Assembly: GCA_003650445.1 (NCBI GenBank)
Contig: QMQE01000002.1
Span: 1-34,387 of the forward strand
DNA: 34,387 nucleotides
Reading direction: 5' to 3'
From: Acidobacteriota bacterium
GTDB taxonomy: Bacteria; Acidobacteriota; Holophagae; Thermotomaculales; Thermotomaculaceae
Positions 18,574-33,691 of the stretch are shown piece after piece (the first letter of the stretch is position 1; each line of letters starts with the position of its first letter). The notes under the pieces are model-generated. The model was not told where the DNA came from. It was given only the letters and a program-made list of their open reading frames with translations, and did no database searches. Position numbers and translations under genes: made by a program.

Positions 18574-18654
18574 AATGCAAGCTTTTTCTAAAAAATTTTC
18601 ACAAAAATGACAAAACCGTACAATCTGAGCCTTTCTCATCCGAGTGAGCAGAAA

Positions 18655-18680
18655 TAGGAGTAGGAGCAGGGGGAAGAAAA
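18655..18680 (+). repeat. Degenerate copy of the GGAGTA array
   Basis: TAGGAGTAGGAGCAGGGGGAAGAAAA. Confidence 0.55.
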
Positions 18681-18807
18681 ATCAAAGATCTGGCCATCCT
18701 CCTTATCACCTGTCGTGCTTCACTCATCCCAGATTCTTTTACTGAAGATTCAGGATGTGCCTGCGGCAGGAGCTGCGGCTGCAATAGCTGAAAAGGACCA
18801 CACGGAT

Positions 18808-18858: not shown

Positions 18859-19785
18859 TTACTTGTTGACCTGAAAGGTGGTGTCACCTTTCTCAAAGAA
18901 ACCGAGAATCTGGTTGGCAGCGGCAAGTGCAGCGTTCACATTTGCTTCCAGTGTCTGCGCCCCCATCTTCTTTGCAGTGAAAAATACACGATCCGGGTAC
19001 TGAGCCAGGAGTTCATCTTTGCAATCCGGTGCAATATCAGACACATAGCGGAAATCCGGTCGTTTTTCCAGCATTTTCTTCAGTCCCTCTTCGTCAATCA
19101 CTTCCTTCCTCGCCGTATTGATTACCGTTGCTCCCTCCTTCATCCGGGACATCAGGGGAAAATTGATGGACTTGATGGTGGGCTTGATTGCCGGGATGTG
19201 CAATGAAACATAGTCCGAGCGATCATACAGCACTTCCACTGAATCCACCGGTTCTACATCATCTTTCCGAATGGTATCCGCTGGGACAAAAGGGTCATAG
19301 GCCAGTACCTCCATGCCAAAACCGCGGGCAATCCGTGACACATTCCGCCCCACATTGCCGTAAGCCTGCAAGCCCAGGGTCTTGCCCTTCAGTTCAGTAC
19401 CGGCTTTCCCGGAATACGCCCGCCTGGCCATGTAAATCATCAGGCCAAACACCAGCTCCGCCACTGCGTTGGAATTCTGCCCGGGGGTATTCATCACCAC
19501 AATTCCCTTTTCGGATGCGGCTTCCAGATCCACATTGTCGTATCCTGCACCGGCCCGGACTACAATCTTGAGGTTCGGGGCATTGTCCATCACTTCCCTC
19601 GTTACCTTGTCGCTGCGTATAATCAGTGCTTCCACATCCGACACAGCATTGACAAAGGCCTGCTGATCCGGATAATTCTCCAGAACCTGCAGTTCATACC
19701 CTGCGCCTTCCATTATCTTCCGAATCCCGTCCACAGCAATTGAAGCAAACGGCTTAACTGTCGCAACCATTACTTTTTTTGACAT
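18859..19785 (-). CDS. D-isomer-specific 2-hydroxyacid dehydrogenase (phosphoglycerate dehydrogenase-like, no ACT domain)
   Basis: MSKKVMVATVKPFASIAVDGIRKIME...; 'IVVRAGAGYDNVDLEAASEKGIVVMNTPGQNSNAVAEL'; start trimmed to the ATG behind GAGGGGAATC. Confidence 0.85.
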   Translation of the reverse strand: MSKKVMVATVKPFASIAVDGIRKIMEGAGYELQVLENYPDQQAFVNAVSDVEALIIRSDKVTREVMDNAPNLKIVVRAGAGYDNVDLEAASEKGIVVMNTPGQNSNAVAELVFGLMIYMARRAYSGKAGTELKGKTLGLQAYGNVGRNVSRIARGFGMEVLAYDPFVPADTIRKDDVEPVDSVEVLYDRSDYVSLHIPAIKPTIKSINFPLMSRMKEGATVINTARKEVIDEEGLKKMLEKRPDFRYVSDIAPDCKDELLAQYPDRVFFTAKKMGAQTLEANVNAALAAANQILGFFEKGDTTFQVNK

Positions 19786-19818: not shown

Positions 19819-19904
19819 TTAACTGTAACGCACCACTCTCCCCTTGTCAAAGAGTTAAGGGGAAGTGTTCTGTGCGCCTGCGGCGCCTGTATTCTGTGTT
19901 CTGA
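19819..19904 (-). repeat. 86-bp direct repeat, copy 1; contains promoter TTGACA-N17-TACAGT on the minus strand
   Basis: 85/86 identical to 21494..21579; -35 at 19850..19845, -10 at 19827..19822; hairpin GCGCC TGC GGCGC at 19874..19886. Confidence 0.9.
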
Positions 19905-19986
19905 GGGATAAGAATGGGAATGAGAGTGCGGAAAGAGTACATGTAAGTATCCAGATAATTCCAGAGCTGTTTCAATCGGCTCATTG

Positions 19987-20607
19987 TCATTTTTTCTCAA
20001 GTGTTTTTTTCAGCTCGGCAATTAACTTTTTTGATTTTTCAGGAATATGACAATCAAAACCCGAATCGGTCTTTTCAGTGGCAATCGTCCGTGTTAAACG
20101 TTCCAATTCCTCAGTCCCATGCAATTTTTCAATACCGATGCACGCAATGAATGCCCTCAAAAATGACAGGATGTGAGTCCAGTGGTTATATCCTTCTGGG
20201 GCCTGAATTTGCTCTCGCCAATCACCTACCCTTAATTGGATTTCTTTACCCTGCAACCATCTAATTTTGAGCCATGGATCCCTGTTTTTTATCCGAAGTT
20301 CAAATACAAAAGAATCCACATTATTCTTGTGCAATTTCCTTGTTGAAAACAGGCTTTTCATCAAAATCAATTCCTGGTCTGTATCAAAGCTAATTTTGTG
20401 TGCTTCTGTAGTAAGACTTTTAAGGGCCTTGGGCGTACCAGCCAGGAAAAGAACAGCCAGAACAATCAAGTTTTCGTATCCTTGAATGCCTGGCCTGTCA
20501 GAATGGACAACAAAAAAGACCAGAATAGTGGGAAGTATCAACCCGATAAATATGTTCCCATACAGGACAAGAGATAGTTTTTTGAAGATCATGATCTTTT
20601 TTCCCAT
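19987..20607 (-). CDS. Hypothetical membrane protein (two N-terminal TM segments plus possible PH-like soluble domain)
   Basis: MGKKIMIFKKLSLVLYGNIFIGLILPTILVFFVVHSDRPGIQGYENLIVLAVLFLAGTPKAL... Confidence 0.6.
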   Translation of the reverse strand: MGKKIMIFKKLSLVLYGNIFIGLILPTILVFFVVHSDRPGIQGYENLIVLAVLFLAGTPKALKSLTTEAHKISFDTDQELILMKSLFSTRKLHKNNVDSFVFELRIKNRDPWLKIRWLQGKEIQLRVGDWREQIQAPEGYNHWTHILSFLRAFIACIGIEKLHGTEELERLTRTIATEKTDSGFDCHIPEKSKKLIAELKKTLEKK

Positions 20608-20642
20608 ATTTTACCTTTCTCAAAATGGATAATGTAAGTGTT

Positions 20643-21029
20643 TCAATCTAAACCCAGACTACCGGAATCCGGTCTGATATCCGAATTCCTTCCAGACTTG
20701 TCGTGGATGAGATCAGCTTTTGTAAACAATGGAACGCTTACAAGATCAATGTGCTTTTTCAAAGCTGCTTTTGTAATTTGCGCATACGCCAGCACATCCA
20801 CTTTCAAGGCCAGACTGCTCTCAGCGAAAAGTGTCCATAGCCGGTCTGTTGCTTTTTTGTCAATGTCGCCCCTCAACACAAGGTCAATATCCGAGTTCGG
20901 GCGGTGCGTGCCCTGTGCCCTTGACCCGAATAAATCGACTCGGTCTATCCTGTCGGCAAACGGTGCCAGGATCTCCCGGATTATCTCCAGTTGTTGTTTT
21001 GATAATCCATTGTCCATCTTTTTATTCAC
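20643..21029 (-). CDS. mntA: MNT-type nucleotidyltransferase, MntA-like antitoxin
   Basis: 'DLFGSRAQGTHRPNSDIDLVL' matches GSX10DXD; overlaps the upstream HEPN gene by 8 nt. Confidence 0.8.
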   Translation of the reverse strand: MNKKMDNGLSKQQLEIIREILAPFADRIDRVDLFGSRAQGTHRPNSDIDLVLRGDIDKKATDRLWTLFAESSLALKVDVLAYAQITKAALKKHIDLVSVPLFTKADLIHDKSGRNSDIRPDSGSLGLD

Positions 21030-21456
21030 GACCCTCTTCTTCCTGTGAGAATTGTAAAAGCTTAAAGTAAATCTCTTCCATCGCCGGCAGATAATGGGTC
21101 TTTATATCTTCAATAACACTTTCAAACTGTGCCAGATCGTAGGTGTGTGACATTTTGTTCCTGGCATCCAGCGCGTCCATCCATACCTGACCGTCGTTGA
21201 TTAGTTTTGCGGCAAAGGCTTCTCGGATTACGCTCCGTGGTGTTACCTGGGGAATTACCACGTTCTGGAATTCCAGATAATCTTTCAATGTCTTCCATGC
21301 AAGCTCAATGCTATACTCAAAACGCTGGATAACGCCTTCCTTCTCAAGTTGGTTAAGCCCTTTCTCATCCTTTTGCTTCATTGCCTCTCTTAACAAAACA
21401 TAAGCCCGCTGAAAATTATCAAAGCGATACAACCATCGAGGTTTTTCATCTGGCAC
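21022..21456 (-). CDS. hepT: HEPN / nucleotidyltransferase substrate-binding protein, HepT-like toxin
   Basis: 'DARNKMSHTYD' matches RX4HXY; GTG start at 21456 behind GGGAGG, replacing the ORF start at 21525 that lies in the repeat. Confidence 0.8.
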   Translation of the reverse strand: MPDEKPRWLYRFDNFQRAYVLLREAMKQKDEKGLNQLEKEGVIQRFEYSIELAWKTLKDYLEFQNVVIPQVTPRSVIREAFAAKLINDGQVWMDALDARNKMSHTYDLAQFESVIEDIKTHYLPAMEEIYFKLLQFSQEEEGRE

Positions 21457-21493
21457 TTCATACCTCCCTGAACAATATTCTCTAAATTCTTTC

Positions 21494-21579
21494 TTAACTG
21501 TAACGCACCACTCTCCCCTTGTCAAAGAGTTAAGGGGAAGTGTTCTGTGCGCCTGCGGCGCCTGTATTCAGTGTTCTGA
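21494..21579 (-). repeat. 86-bp direct repeat, copy 2; contains promoter TTGACA-N17-TACAGT on the minus strand
   Basis: One mismatch to copy 1 (t19895 vs a21570); -35 at 21525..21520, -10 at 21502..21497. Confidence 0.9.
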
Positions 21580-21711: not shown

Positions 21712-22713
21712 CTACACGCCGCGGAAATCCGGTTCCGGGCTCGGACGGTTGTCGACAATGGTTTCAAGCCGGCCCATCACATCGTCTGTCAGAAGCGACA
21801 CATCATCCAGCGCCTTCATGTTTTCCACCACTTGTTCCGGACGGGACGCCCCGGTAATAACGGTGGAAACATGGGGGTTTTTCAAACACCATGCCAGGGC
21901 CAGGCGAGCAAGGGAAATCCCCAGTTCATCTGCCACTACCTGCAGTTTACGGGCCTTCTCAATTTTCACTTTACCCTCTGGAGTGTCCATGATGCTTTCT
22001 TTCAGCCACTTGTAGCTTGAAAGAGACAGACGGCTGCCTTTCGGAATTCCATTACTGTATTTGCCGGTGAGGATGCCGCTGGCCAGCGGACTCCAGATGG
22101 TCGTTCCCAGCCCAATCCGGTCATAGAGCCGGATATATTCTTTTTCAATCCGCTCTCGCCTCAGGAGATTGTACTGGGACTGTTCCATCAGCGGCGGTAC
22201 CATGCCATTTGCCCTTGCGATGTGCCAGGCATCCATGATCATGTCTGCCGGCCACTCGGACGTTCCCCAGTACATCGCCTTGCCTTCCCGAATCAGCTGA
22301 TTCATGGCACGGACGGTTTCTTCCACCGGGGTAAAAAAATCCGGCCGATGGCAGAATACAAGGTCCACATAATCCATTCCCAACCGGCCTAAAGCAGCGT
22401 CCATTCCCTCCTTAACGTGTTTTGCATGTACACCCTTATCATTGGGGCCAACACCTCCCCAGAAGATTTTCGTACTAATCACAAGGTCGGAGCGTTTCCA
22501 TCCCAGTTTACGGATGATCCGGCCCATCATTTCCTCTGCCACACCGTGGCCGTACACCTCTGCATTATCAAAGAAATTGACCCCCGCGTCATAGGCCGCC
22601 TTCATGCAGGCCTCTGCCGTTTCATCTCCAATCTGGTCCCCGAATGTCACCCAGGCCCCGAAACTCAACGCCGAAACCCGAAGGCCCGATCTTCCCAGTT
22701 GACGATATTCCAT
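21712..22713 (-). CDS. Aldo/keto reductase (Kv-beta/YghZ-like)
   Basis: MEYRQLGRSGLRVSALSFGAWVTFG...'FFDNAEVYGHGVAEEMMGR'...'RPEQVVENMKALD'. Confidence 0.9.
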   Translation of the reverse strand: MEYRQLGRSGLRVSALSFGAWVTFGDQIGDETAEACMKAAYDAGVNFFDNAEVYGHGVAEEMMGRIIRKLGWKRSDLVISTKIFWGGVGPNDKGVHAKHVKEGMDAALGRLGMDYVDLVFCHRPDFFTPVEETVRAMNQLIREGKAMYWGTSEWPADMIMDAWHIARANGMVPPLMEQSQYNLLRRERIEKEYIRLYDRIGLGTTIWSPLASGILTGKYSNGIPKGSRLSLSSYKWLKESIMDTPEGKVKIEKARKLQVVADELGISLARLALAWCLKNPHVSTVITGASRPEQVVENMKALDDVSLLTDDVMGRLETIVDNRPSPEPDFRGV

Positions 22714-22777
22714 CCCGTTTCCTCCCGTAGCTTTTTGTTCCCACCCTTTCCTGCAATTGTATCATCTCAATGGGAAA

Positions 22778-22809
22778 GTAGGGGTAGGAGTTGGAGTAGG
22801 GGTAAGAAA
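22778..22809 (+). repeat. GGAGTA/GGGGTA degenerate hexamer array
   Basis: GTAGGGGTAGGAGTTGGAGTAGGGGTAAGAAA. Confidence 0.75.
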
Positions 22810-22813
22810 GAAG

Positions 22814-22848
22814 CAAAAAAAAGGCAGGGAACATCTGGTTCCCTGCCT
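22814..22848 (-). terminator. Rho-independent terminator of the tricorn protease gene
   Basis: Minus strand GGCAGGGAAC CAGAT GTTCCCTGCC TTTTTTTT. Confidence 0.85.
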
Positions 22849-32244: not shown

Positions 32245-33557
32245 ACTGGAGAGCCATCGGCAGCCTGCTGCTCAACATCATCGCCATTTCTGTCCTGTTT
32301 TTCCTGATACTAACCGGGAGCAGTACGGTATCTCACAGCGCTGCAATCGCCCCCTACCTGGCGTTGGGTTTTCTCATCATCGTCGCCTACCTTACAGGGA
32401 TTCTGGCAAGAGAACTGGGCTTCCCCGCCCTTACCGGGAACCTCTTGGCCGGCATCGTATTCGGTCCGTCCCTTCTGGGATTTATCACGAAAAGCAACAT
32501 TCATTCCCTTGAATTCATTAACACCATCGCCTTGAGTTTTATTGCCCTGTCAGCCGGAGGTGAATTGAAACTTAAGAGCCTCCGGGAGAATGCCAGCGTC
32601 ATTTCAGGCATCACTTTGAGTCACACGGTTCTGATTTTCGGCGGTACCCTGGTGGCCATGGTTTCCTTCCTGAACATCTCCGGAATCCAGGGAATCGCCG
32701 GATCAAGAATCATCTGGATGGCATCCATTGTTCTGGCCGTAGTCGCTGTGGCAAAATCCCCGGCATCCACCATCGCAGTTATTAACGAGTATAAAGCCAG
32801 GGGGCCGTTTACAGACGTTGTACTGGGCGTGACCATGGTGAAAGACGTTGTTGTACTCCTGATATTTGCCGTTTCCATGGGAATAATCCGGGGAATCAGC
32901 GGTGCAGCGCCCTTCTCTCTTTCTTTTCTCTTTCACACCTTTGGAGACATTTTTCTGTCCATTGGCGCCGGCCTGGTTTACGGCGGATTGATGATCCTGT
33001 TTTACCGTTTTGTTGCCCGTGAAATCACTGTGTTCATTGTCATTGCCGCTTTTCTTGCCAATGAACTGGCAAGCTTTGCCGGATTGGAACAGATGCTCAT
33101 GTGCATGATTGCCGGCTTCGTCGTTCAGAATTTCTCCAGGCAAGGGGCTTTGATGATTGAGGGAATTGAAAAAAGTCATCTTCCAATCTACGTCATTTTC
33201 TTTTCCATTGCAGGAGCCGGGTTGGATTTTTCATATTTTGGATCGGTTTACATCCTTGTCACGCTTTTTGTGCTTCTCCGTGTCGGCCTTATCTTCTTCT
33301 CCACTTTTCTGGGAGCGAAACTCACAGGGGCATCCCCCGCCATACGAAAATTTGCCTGGACCGGTTTTCTCACCAATGCCGGCCTGACCCTCAGTATTGC
33401 CATTATTGTCGAAAAGGCATTTCCGGACTGGGGCCGGCCGTTGAAATCCATCATCATTTCCGCCATTGCCATCAATCAGCTTGTGGGGCCGGTGCTGTTT
33501 AAGATTGGCCTGGTAAAAAGCGGAGAAGTGAGGCCGCAGAGCGGCCGTGACAGGTGA
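32241..33557 (+). CDS. CPA2-type cation:proton antiporter (KefB/NhaP-like)
   Basis: 'ELGFPALTGNLLAGIVFGPSLLGFI', 'FIALSAGGELKLKSLRENASVI', 'ILAVVAVAKSPASTIAVINE'. Confidence 0.85.
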   Translation: MNWRAIGSLLLNIIAISVLFFLILTGSSTVSHSAAIAPYLALGFLIIVAYLTGILARELGFPALTGNLLAGIVFGPSLLGFITKSNIHSLEFINTIALSFIALSAGGELKLKSLRENASVISGITLSHTVLIFGGTLVAMVSFLNISGIQGIAGSRIIWMASIVLAVVAVAKSPASTIAVINEYKARGPFTDVVLGVTMVKDVVVLLIFAVSMGIIRGISGAAPFSLSFLFHTFGDIFLSIGAGLVYGGLMILFYRFVAREITVFIVIAAFLANELASFAGLEQMLMCMIAGFVVQNFSRQGALMIEGIEKSHLPIYVIFFSIAGAGLDFSYFGSVYILVTLFVLLRVGLIFFSTFLGAKLTGASPAIRKFAWTGFLTNAGLTLSIAIIVEKAFPDWGRPLKSIIISAIAINQLVGPVLFKIGLVKSGEVRPQSGRDR

Positions 33558-33590
33558 TGGCGTACCTCCGGCACTGTGATACGTGATGGG
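33553..33590 (+). repeat. GTGATG-type array around a GTACC TCC GGCAC hairpin, overlapping the antiporter stop codon
   Basis: GGTGATGGCGTACCTCCGGCACTGTGATACGTGATGGG, closely matching the reverse complement of 561..628. Confidence 0.7.
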
Positions 33591-33691
33591 TTCCGGAAGT
33601 GTTCTGCATTTTGAAAAAGCGACATGTGGTGTGGACGTCAGACAGGGAACCGGCCATGCTCCCTATAAACCGAGGCAAAAAAGATGAAATG

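Follow-up and report, generated by a model that had tools for sequence, protein, structure and literature searches.

How toxin-antitoxin pairs without a transposase spread across distant phyla is an open question, and it is raised by a three-gene block in a draft genome (2.16 Mb, 178 contigs) of an Acidobacteriota bacterium. In the window, which is the whole analysed stretch of 34,387 nt and corresponds to one contig (C2), two direct repeats of 86 nt with a single mismatch (99% identical) bracket a minus-strand block of 1,589 bp, which encodes a HEPN protein, an MNT nucleotidyltransferase and a 206-aa protein with two predicted transmembrane helices (Table 1). The sequence-only reading had described such a unit between the repeats, and its three co-oriented genes, with a 35-nt gap before the third, were borne out; the extent that it gave, 19905-21579, holds for the inserted segment up to 21493, while the remainder is the second repeat. 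The GC content of the block is 0.421, whereas stretches of the same size from the rest of the window average 0.513 +/- 0.022 and never fall below 0.467, and no recombinase or transposase is found among its genes.

Table 1. Features of the block and its surroundings, in positions of the window.
Feature	Position	Strand	Remarks
D-3-phosphoglycerate dehydrogenase-like gene (PGDH), downstream target gene	18859..19785	-	PF00389/PF02826; 87-92% orthologues in three congeners
Repeat copy 1	19819..19904	-	Promoter TTGACA-17-TACAGT before PGDH and first part of an interspersed repeat, truncated by the cassette at TTCTGA
Inserted cassette (sequence comparison)	19905..21493	-	1,589 bp, GC 0.421; empty site in G002 and G003
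Orphan 206-aa protein gene	19987..20607	-	Two predicted TM helices; passenger or accessory; no family or homologue matched
MNT nucleotidyltransferase gene (putative antitoxin)	20643..21029	-	GSX10DXD; PF01909/PF18765; start ATG 21017 or GTG 21029
HEPN gene (putative toxin)	21022..21456	-	GTG start; RX4HXY; PF08780/HI0074 family
Repeat copy 2	21494..21579	-	Same promoter, before HEPN; on the AKR side, the interspersed-repeat consensus runs on (intact end)
Aldo/keto reductase gene (AKR), upstream target gene	21712..22713	-	PF00248; adjoins PGDH in G002 and G003

The HEPN-MNT pair itself is of a known kind. The HEPN protein (144 aa) starts with GTG 6 nt 3' of a GGAGG and contains RNKMSHTY, which fits RX4HXY, while the MNT protein carries an intact GSX10DXD in GSRAQGTHRPNSDID, a motif also present in 74 of 75 relatives; both motifs had been correctly recognized from the sequence. 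The start region of MNT abuts or overlaps the stop codon of HEPN. Three sequence features of a type VII system are present here: small HEPN and MNT genes side by side in a single operon, the acceptor tyrosine of RX4HXY and the intact GSX10DXD. Among solved proteins, the closest to HEPN is that of Legionella pneumophila (8xdj, E 3e-22), followed by TTHA0048, TTHA0636 and HI0074, and the closest to MNT are the Legionella MNT (8xeh/8xeo) and HI0073 (1no5). The Legionella HEPN is a Mg-dependent RNase that needs Q44 and E47, and its MNT AMPylates Y105 of RX4HXY (PMC11586414; 8xdj, 8xeh, 8xem, 8xeo); in the alignment to 8xdj, Q44, E47, R98, H103 and Y105 all have identical residues here. By family knowledge, HEPN would be an RNase toxin and MNT its AMPylating antitoxin. 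Unlike the Legionella pair, the one studied here is known from sequence alone, is followed by a third, orphan gene and is bracketed by a promoter-bearing target duplication.

The assignment of the pair to the HepT/MntA type, as first proposed, stands only in part. HEPN matches PF08780 with 145.6 bits (cut-off 31.8, E 1e-42) and the curated HI0074 family TIGR01987 with 97.6 bits (cut-off 55.8), whereas a Pfam search gave no match to the HepT family PF01934, and MNT reaches 33.4 bits against the MntA model cut-off of 60, which places the pair outside the HepT/MntA subfamily (PF01934; NF047752). What holds of the proposal is that the nearest solved pair, from Legionella, is a proven HEPN-MNT toxin-antitoxin, and the architecture is shared with Shewanella HepT/MntA (PMC7641770), in which MntA AMPylates HepT, so that the same chemistry may be expected. 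The pair also resembles HI0074/HI0073 of Haemophilus influenzae (1jog, 1no5) in its HEPN family and its related MNT, although the pairwise similarity is only ~30 bits and HI0074 bears a name that refers to substrate binding rather than to toxicity. In PADLOC, MNT has only weak candidate-system matches (PDC-S09, PDC-M05A) and nucleotidyltransferase-like matches, while HEPN and the membrane protein have none.

The third gene, whose product has two hydrophobic segments, begins 35 nt past the MNT stop and is preceded by an SD-like GAGAAAGG. This reading frame is probably genuine, because the start is SD-like, the base pattern is coding-like (GC of 0.44, 0.32 and 0.41 at codon positions 1, 2 and 3) and none of 500 first-order shuffles of the block produced an open frame of 206 codons (longest 203). 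No homologue of the encoded protein was found in public genomes, viral contigs, phages or plasmids, in 396 genomes from the phylum of this bacterium or in 379 from that of the nearest HEPN relative (L051), nor was any match found in Pfam, PHROGs, NCBIfam, PADLOC or PDB sequences, and an AlphaFold (AF2) model built without an alignment was uninformative (pLDDT 45.5). The strand, the short spacing and the SD-like start could suggest a tripartite system, in which the membrane protein works as a third component, e.g., as effector, sensor or membrane anchor in defence or stress, and the repeats mark the acquisition of the whole unit. However, a relative of this protein lies beside none of 80 related HEPN genes, of which ~74 have an adjacent MNT, it is found in no other searched genome, and the locus of L051 lacks such a gene; the GC content of its gene (0.393) is below those of HEPN (0.434) and MNT (0.477), suggesting separate origins. 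We therefore regard a tripartite system as improbable, and the role of accessory or effector that had been suggested for the membrane protein found no tie to HEPN-MNT. As its gene lies within the same duplication, it either arrived together with the pair or had been linked to it before; it is most likely a passenger, and a role in the toxin-antitoxin function is conceivable, although nothing found here supports it.

That the block is an acquired insertion, as the sequence-only reading had proposed, was supported by its low GC content and by comparison with other genomes. Three genomes of the same genus (G001, G002 and G003) were compared, and the cassette was found in none of them. In G002 and G003, PGDH and AKR are adjacent, separated by a short, different repeat-like sequence and by nothing resembling the block, while in G001 PGDH adjoins a different neighbour, a ruvC-like gene. 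The closest HEPN in public genomes is that of a Deltaproteobacteria MAG (L051, 74% identical), whereas the relative in the congener G003 is only 41% identical, which argues for horizontal transfer. The DNA similarity to L051 (71%) is confined to HEPN-MNT and does not extend beyond the HEPN ribosome-binding site, indicating that no promoter travelled with the pair. The proposed check for an empty site with a single 86-bp copy was thus answered in part: the empty site is there in G002 and G003, but an exact single copy was seen in none of the three congeners; G001 keeps the promoter half, and G002 and G003 lack the 86-bp sequence as such, their gap being filled by other intergenic repeats. At ~2470-2570 of L013 (G003) and L015 (G002), a palindromic repeat of another kind (GGGACAAGTTTAAGTTTGAG ... 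CTCAAACTTGTCCC) occupies this gap, which therefore seems prone to gaining repeats.

The 86-bp repeats are composed of two parts. On the minus strand, each carries the same promoter, before PGDH in copy 1 and before HEPN in copy 2, and since the PGDH gene of G001 is preceded by this promoter half as well, it is the native PGDH promoter. Bases 41-86 belong to a short interspersed repeat with a GCGCC-TGC-GGCGC palindrome, an intergenic element of ~45-70 bp (window 19865-19904 and 21540-21579; L132-L160) that occurs genus-wide; this genome has 12 copies, G002 has 23, G003 has 8 and G001 has none. Beyond TTCTGA, other copies of this element run on as AAAGAAGGGAAAAG..., and so does repeat copy 2, while in copy 1 the element breaks off there. 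The native PGDH flank, which aligns with the congeners, adjoins copy 1, and the native AKR flank adjoins copy 2, from which it follows that the 86 bp are duplicated target DNA and the cassette is the insertion. The block landed between the AKR gene and the PGDH promoter, with the 86 bp at the landing point now on both sides, and on this comparison the repeats are to be read as target DNA in duplicate, not as part of the mobile unit. Because the duplicated target holds the promoter, a copy of the host promoter stands before both the cassette and PGDH. An integron-like attC reading of the repeats was rejected, as one half consists of the PGDH promoter, which is conserved among cassette-free congeners.

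Direct repeats that are 99% identical could also serve as recombination sites through which a switchable cassette is removed and restored, and recombination between them is predicted from the sequence to restore a single promoter before PGDH, just as had been pointed out. This use of the repeats is, however, very unlikely, since the block genes include no recombinase and the repeat consists of the PGDH promoter and a common interspersed repeat, both found in cassette-free relatives, while a circle or a mixed population would not be visible from an assembly. No evidence was obtained for the reversible-switch reading, nor for the defence reading, that had been raised for this block. Even more remote is an assembly artefact, in which the block lies elsewhere, e.g., on a small circle, and was joined via the 86-bp repeat. 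The draft state of the genome, a repeat length near common k-mer sizes and the jump in GC content would fit such an error, and a short-read assembler could in principle be misled by an 86-bp repeat, but the other molecule would then have to carry the identical 86 bp with the PGDH promoter in it, and the interspersed repeat by itself lacks the promoter half, which is found here only in the two 86-bp copies.

According to PMC3874152, which cites Nobusato 2000 and Furuta 2010, some restriction-modification systems insert with long and variable target duplications of ~100 bp. The block studied here is likewise an addictive module without a transposase, flanked by direct repeats of target DNA within the range of tens to ~100 bp, with the difference that it is a toxin-antitoxin module. 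We favor, with a probability of roughly 0.7, the reading that the module is a horizontally acquired type VII-like toxin-antitoxin of the HI0074/Legionella subtype, accompanied by an orphan membrane-protein gene, which entered by insertion with long target duplication, a route reported for restriction-modification genes. Recent HEPN-MNT insertions have been described in Deinococcus and Thermus, where, in the passages of PMC2701414 that deal with them, a module present in one strain or species is missing at the syntenic site of a near relative, as is the case here; these passages do not mention a duplicated target, and a term search of the paper did not return 'direct repeat'. In the literature searched, which included few subscription journals, no report of insertion with long target duplication was found for HEPN-MNT.

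Gain of genes through homologous flanks is common in bacteria, and the block may have arrived in this ordinary way, in DNA of a close relative that already had the order promoter-cassette-promoter or promoter-cassette, so that nothing out of the ordinary marks the insertion. The small number of congeners compared (n = 3) leaves room for such a donor; however, this explanation, to which we assign a minor but not negligible chance, above that of a tripartite system, merely shifts the duplication event to another strain, and repeats also bracket other HEPN-MNT modules in unrelated phyla. These were surveyed in 400 bp on each side of 108 HEPN-MNT modules from many phyla, with a cut-off of E < 1e-4 for direct repeats. 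Repeats were found at 8 of the 108 modules and, among 364 further genes from these loci, at 5 (p = 0.003); a first control with random intervals (2/599) was too easy, and the gene-bordered control was relied on. When both copies had to lie within 150 nt of the border, and with L203 and L210 set aside, the counts were 5 of 106 modules and 2 of 364 control genes (p = 0.008), with repeats of 53-106 bp. The numbers are small and the excess is moderate.

The five modules of the tight count have bracketing repeats of 68 bp (93%, L077), 106 bp (82%, L087), 59 bp (90%, L115), 97 bp (93%, L116) and 53 bp (81%, L124). At L077, L087 and L124, the repeated sequence corresponds to the 3' end of the upstream gene, which stays whole; judging by reading of the sequence, this gene is WD40-like at L077, where the downstream copy reads DGSLQFFDAKTGQPGKVAVNR-stop, and hsdM-like, beside hsdS, at L087 and L124. 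In the latter two loci, the module lies just after the hsdM-like gene, and the duplicated hsdM-like 3' end is downstream of the module. An hsdS-like gene adjoins HEPN-MNT at L087 and L124, and also at L079, L086 and L123. The repeats of L203 and L210 were set aside because L210 carries a second, degenerate HEPN fragment (1662-1952) beside the intact HEPN-MNT, so that its 201-bp repeat may represent an incomplete copy of the module; the repeat of this entry is present at length in only 2 of 7 congeners. The repeats of L102, a locus full of repeats, were also set aside, and those of L076 and L071, which are ~1 kb away, were left out of the count. The empty-site comparison covers the locus in the window alone. 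About 95% of the related modules have no visible flanking repeat, which implies that the scar decays or that this route is one of several.

Recombination would normally eliminate repeats of this length, and their persistence around HEPN-MNT may be related to the function of the pair. HEPN is presumably an RNase kept silent by MNT through AMPylation of the RX4HXY tyrosine; if the block were deleted, the supply of MNT would stop, HEPN would remain unmodified or become de-AMPylated, and the cell would be arrested. Deletants would thereby be selected against, and addiction is proposed to protect the direct-repeat scar. Even if DNA of many kinds inserts in the same manner, such selection would explain why scars are found at addictive modules. 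It is a tentative and rather doubtful generalization that HEPN-MNT modules as a class move themselves by insertion with long target duplication, with addiction guarding the scar, a duplicated host promoter being gained and the neighbouring gene left unbroken. The 86-bp duplication, the empty sites of the congeners and the five similar scars in several phyla point to a route of the restriction-modification type, which is testable, because repeat length, decay, duplicated gene ends and the lethality of excision can all be measured.

Other repeats are also present in the window. A second dispersed repeat of low complexity (AGTTGGAGTAGGGGTAGGAG...) occurs between genes in both orientations, at 506-548, 1297-1322, 18647-18689 and 22777-22831, and an inverted pair of 45 nt with a TGCCGGAGGCA-like palindrome is located near both contig ends, at 575-619 and 33547-33591.
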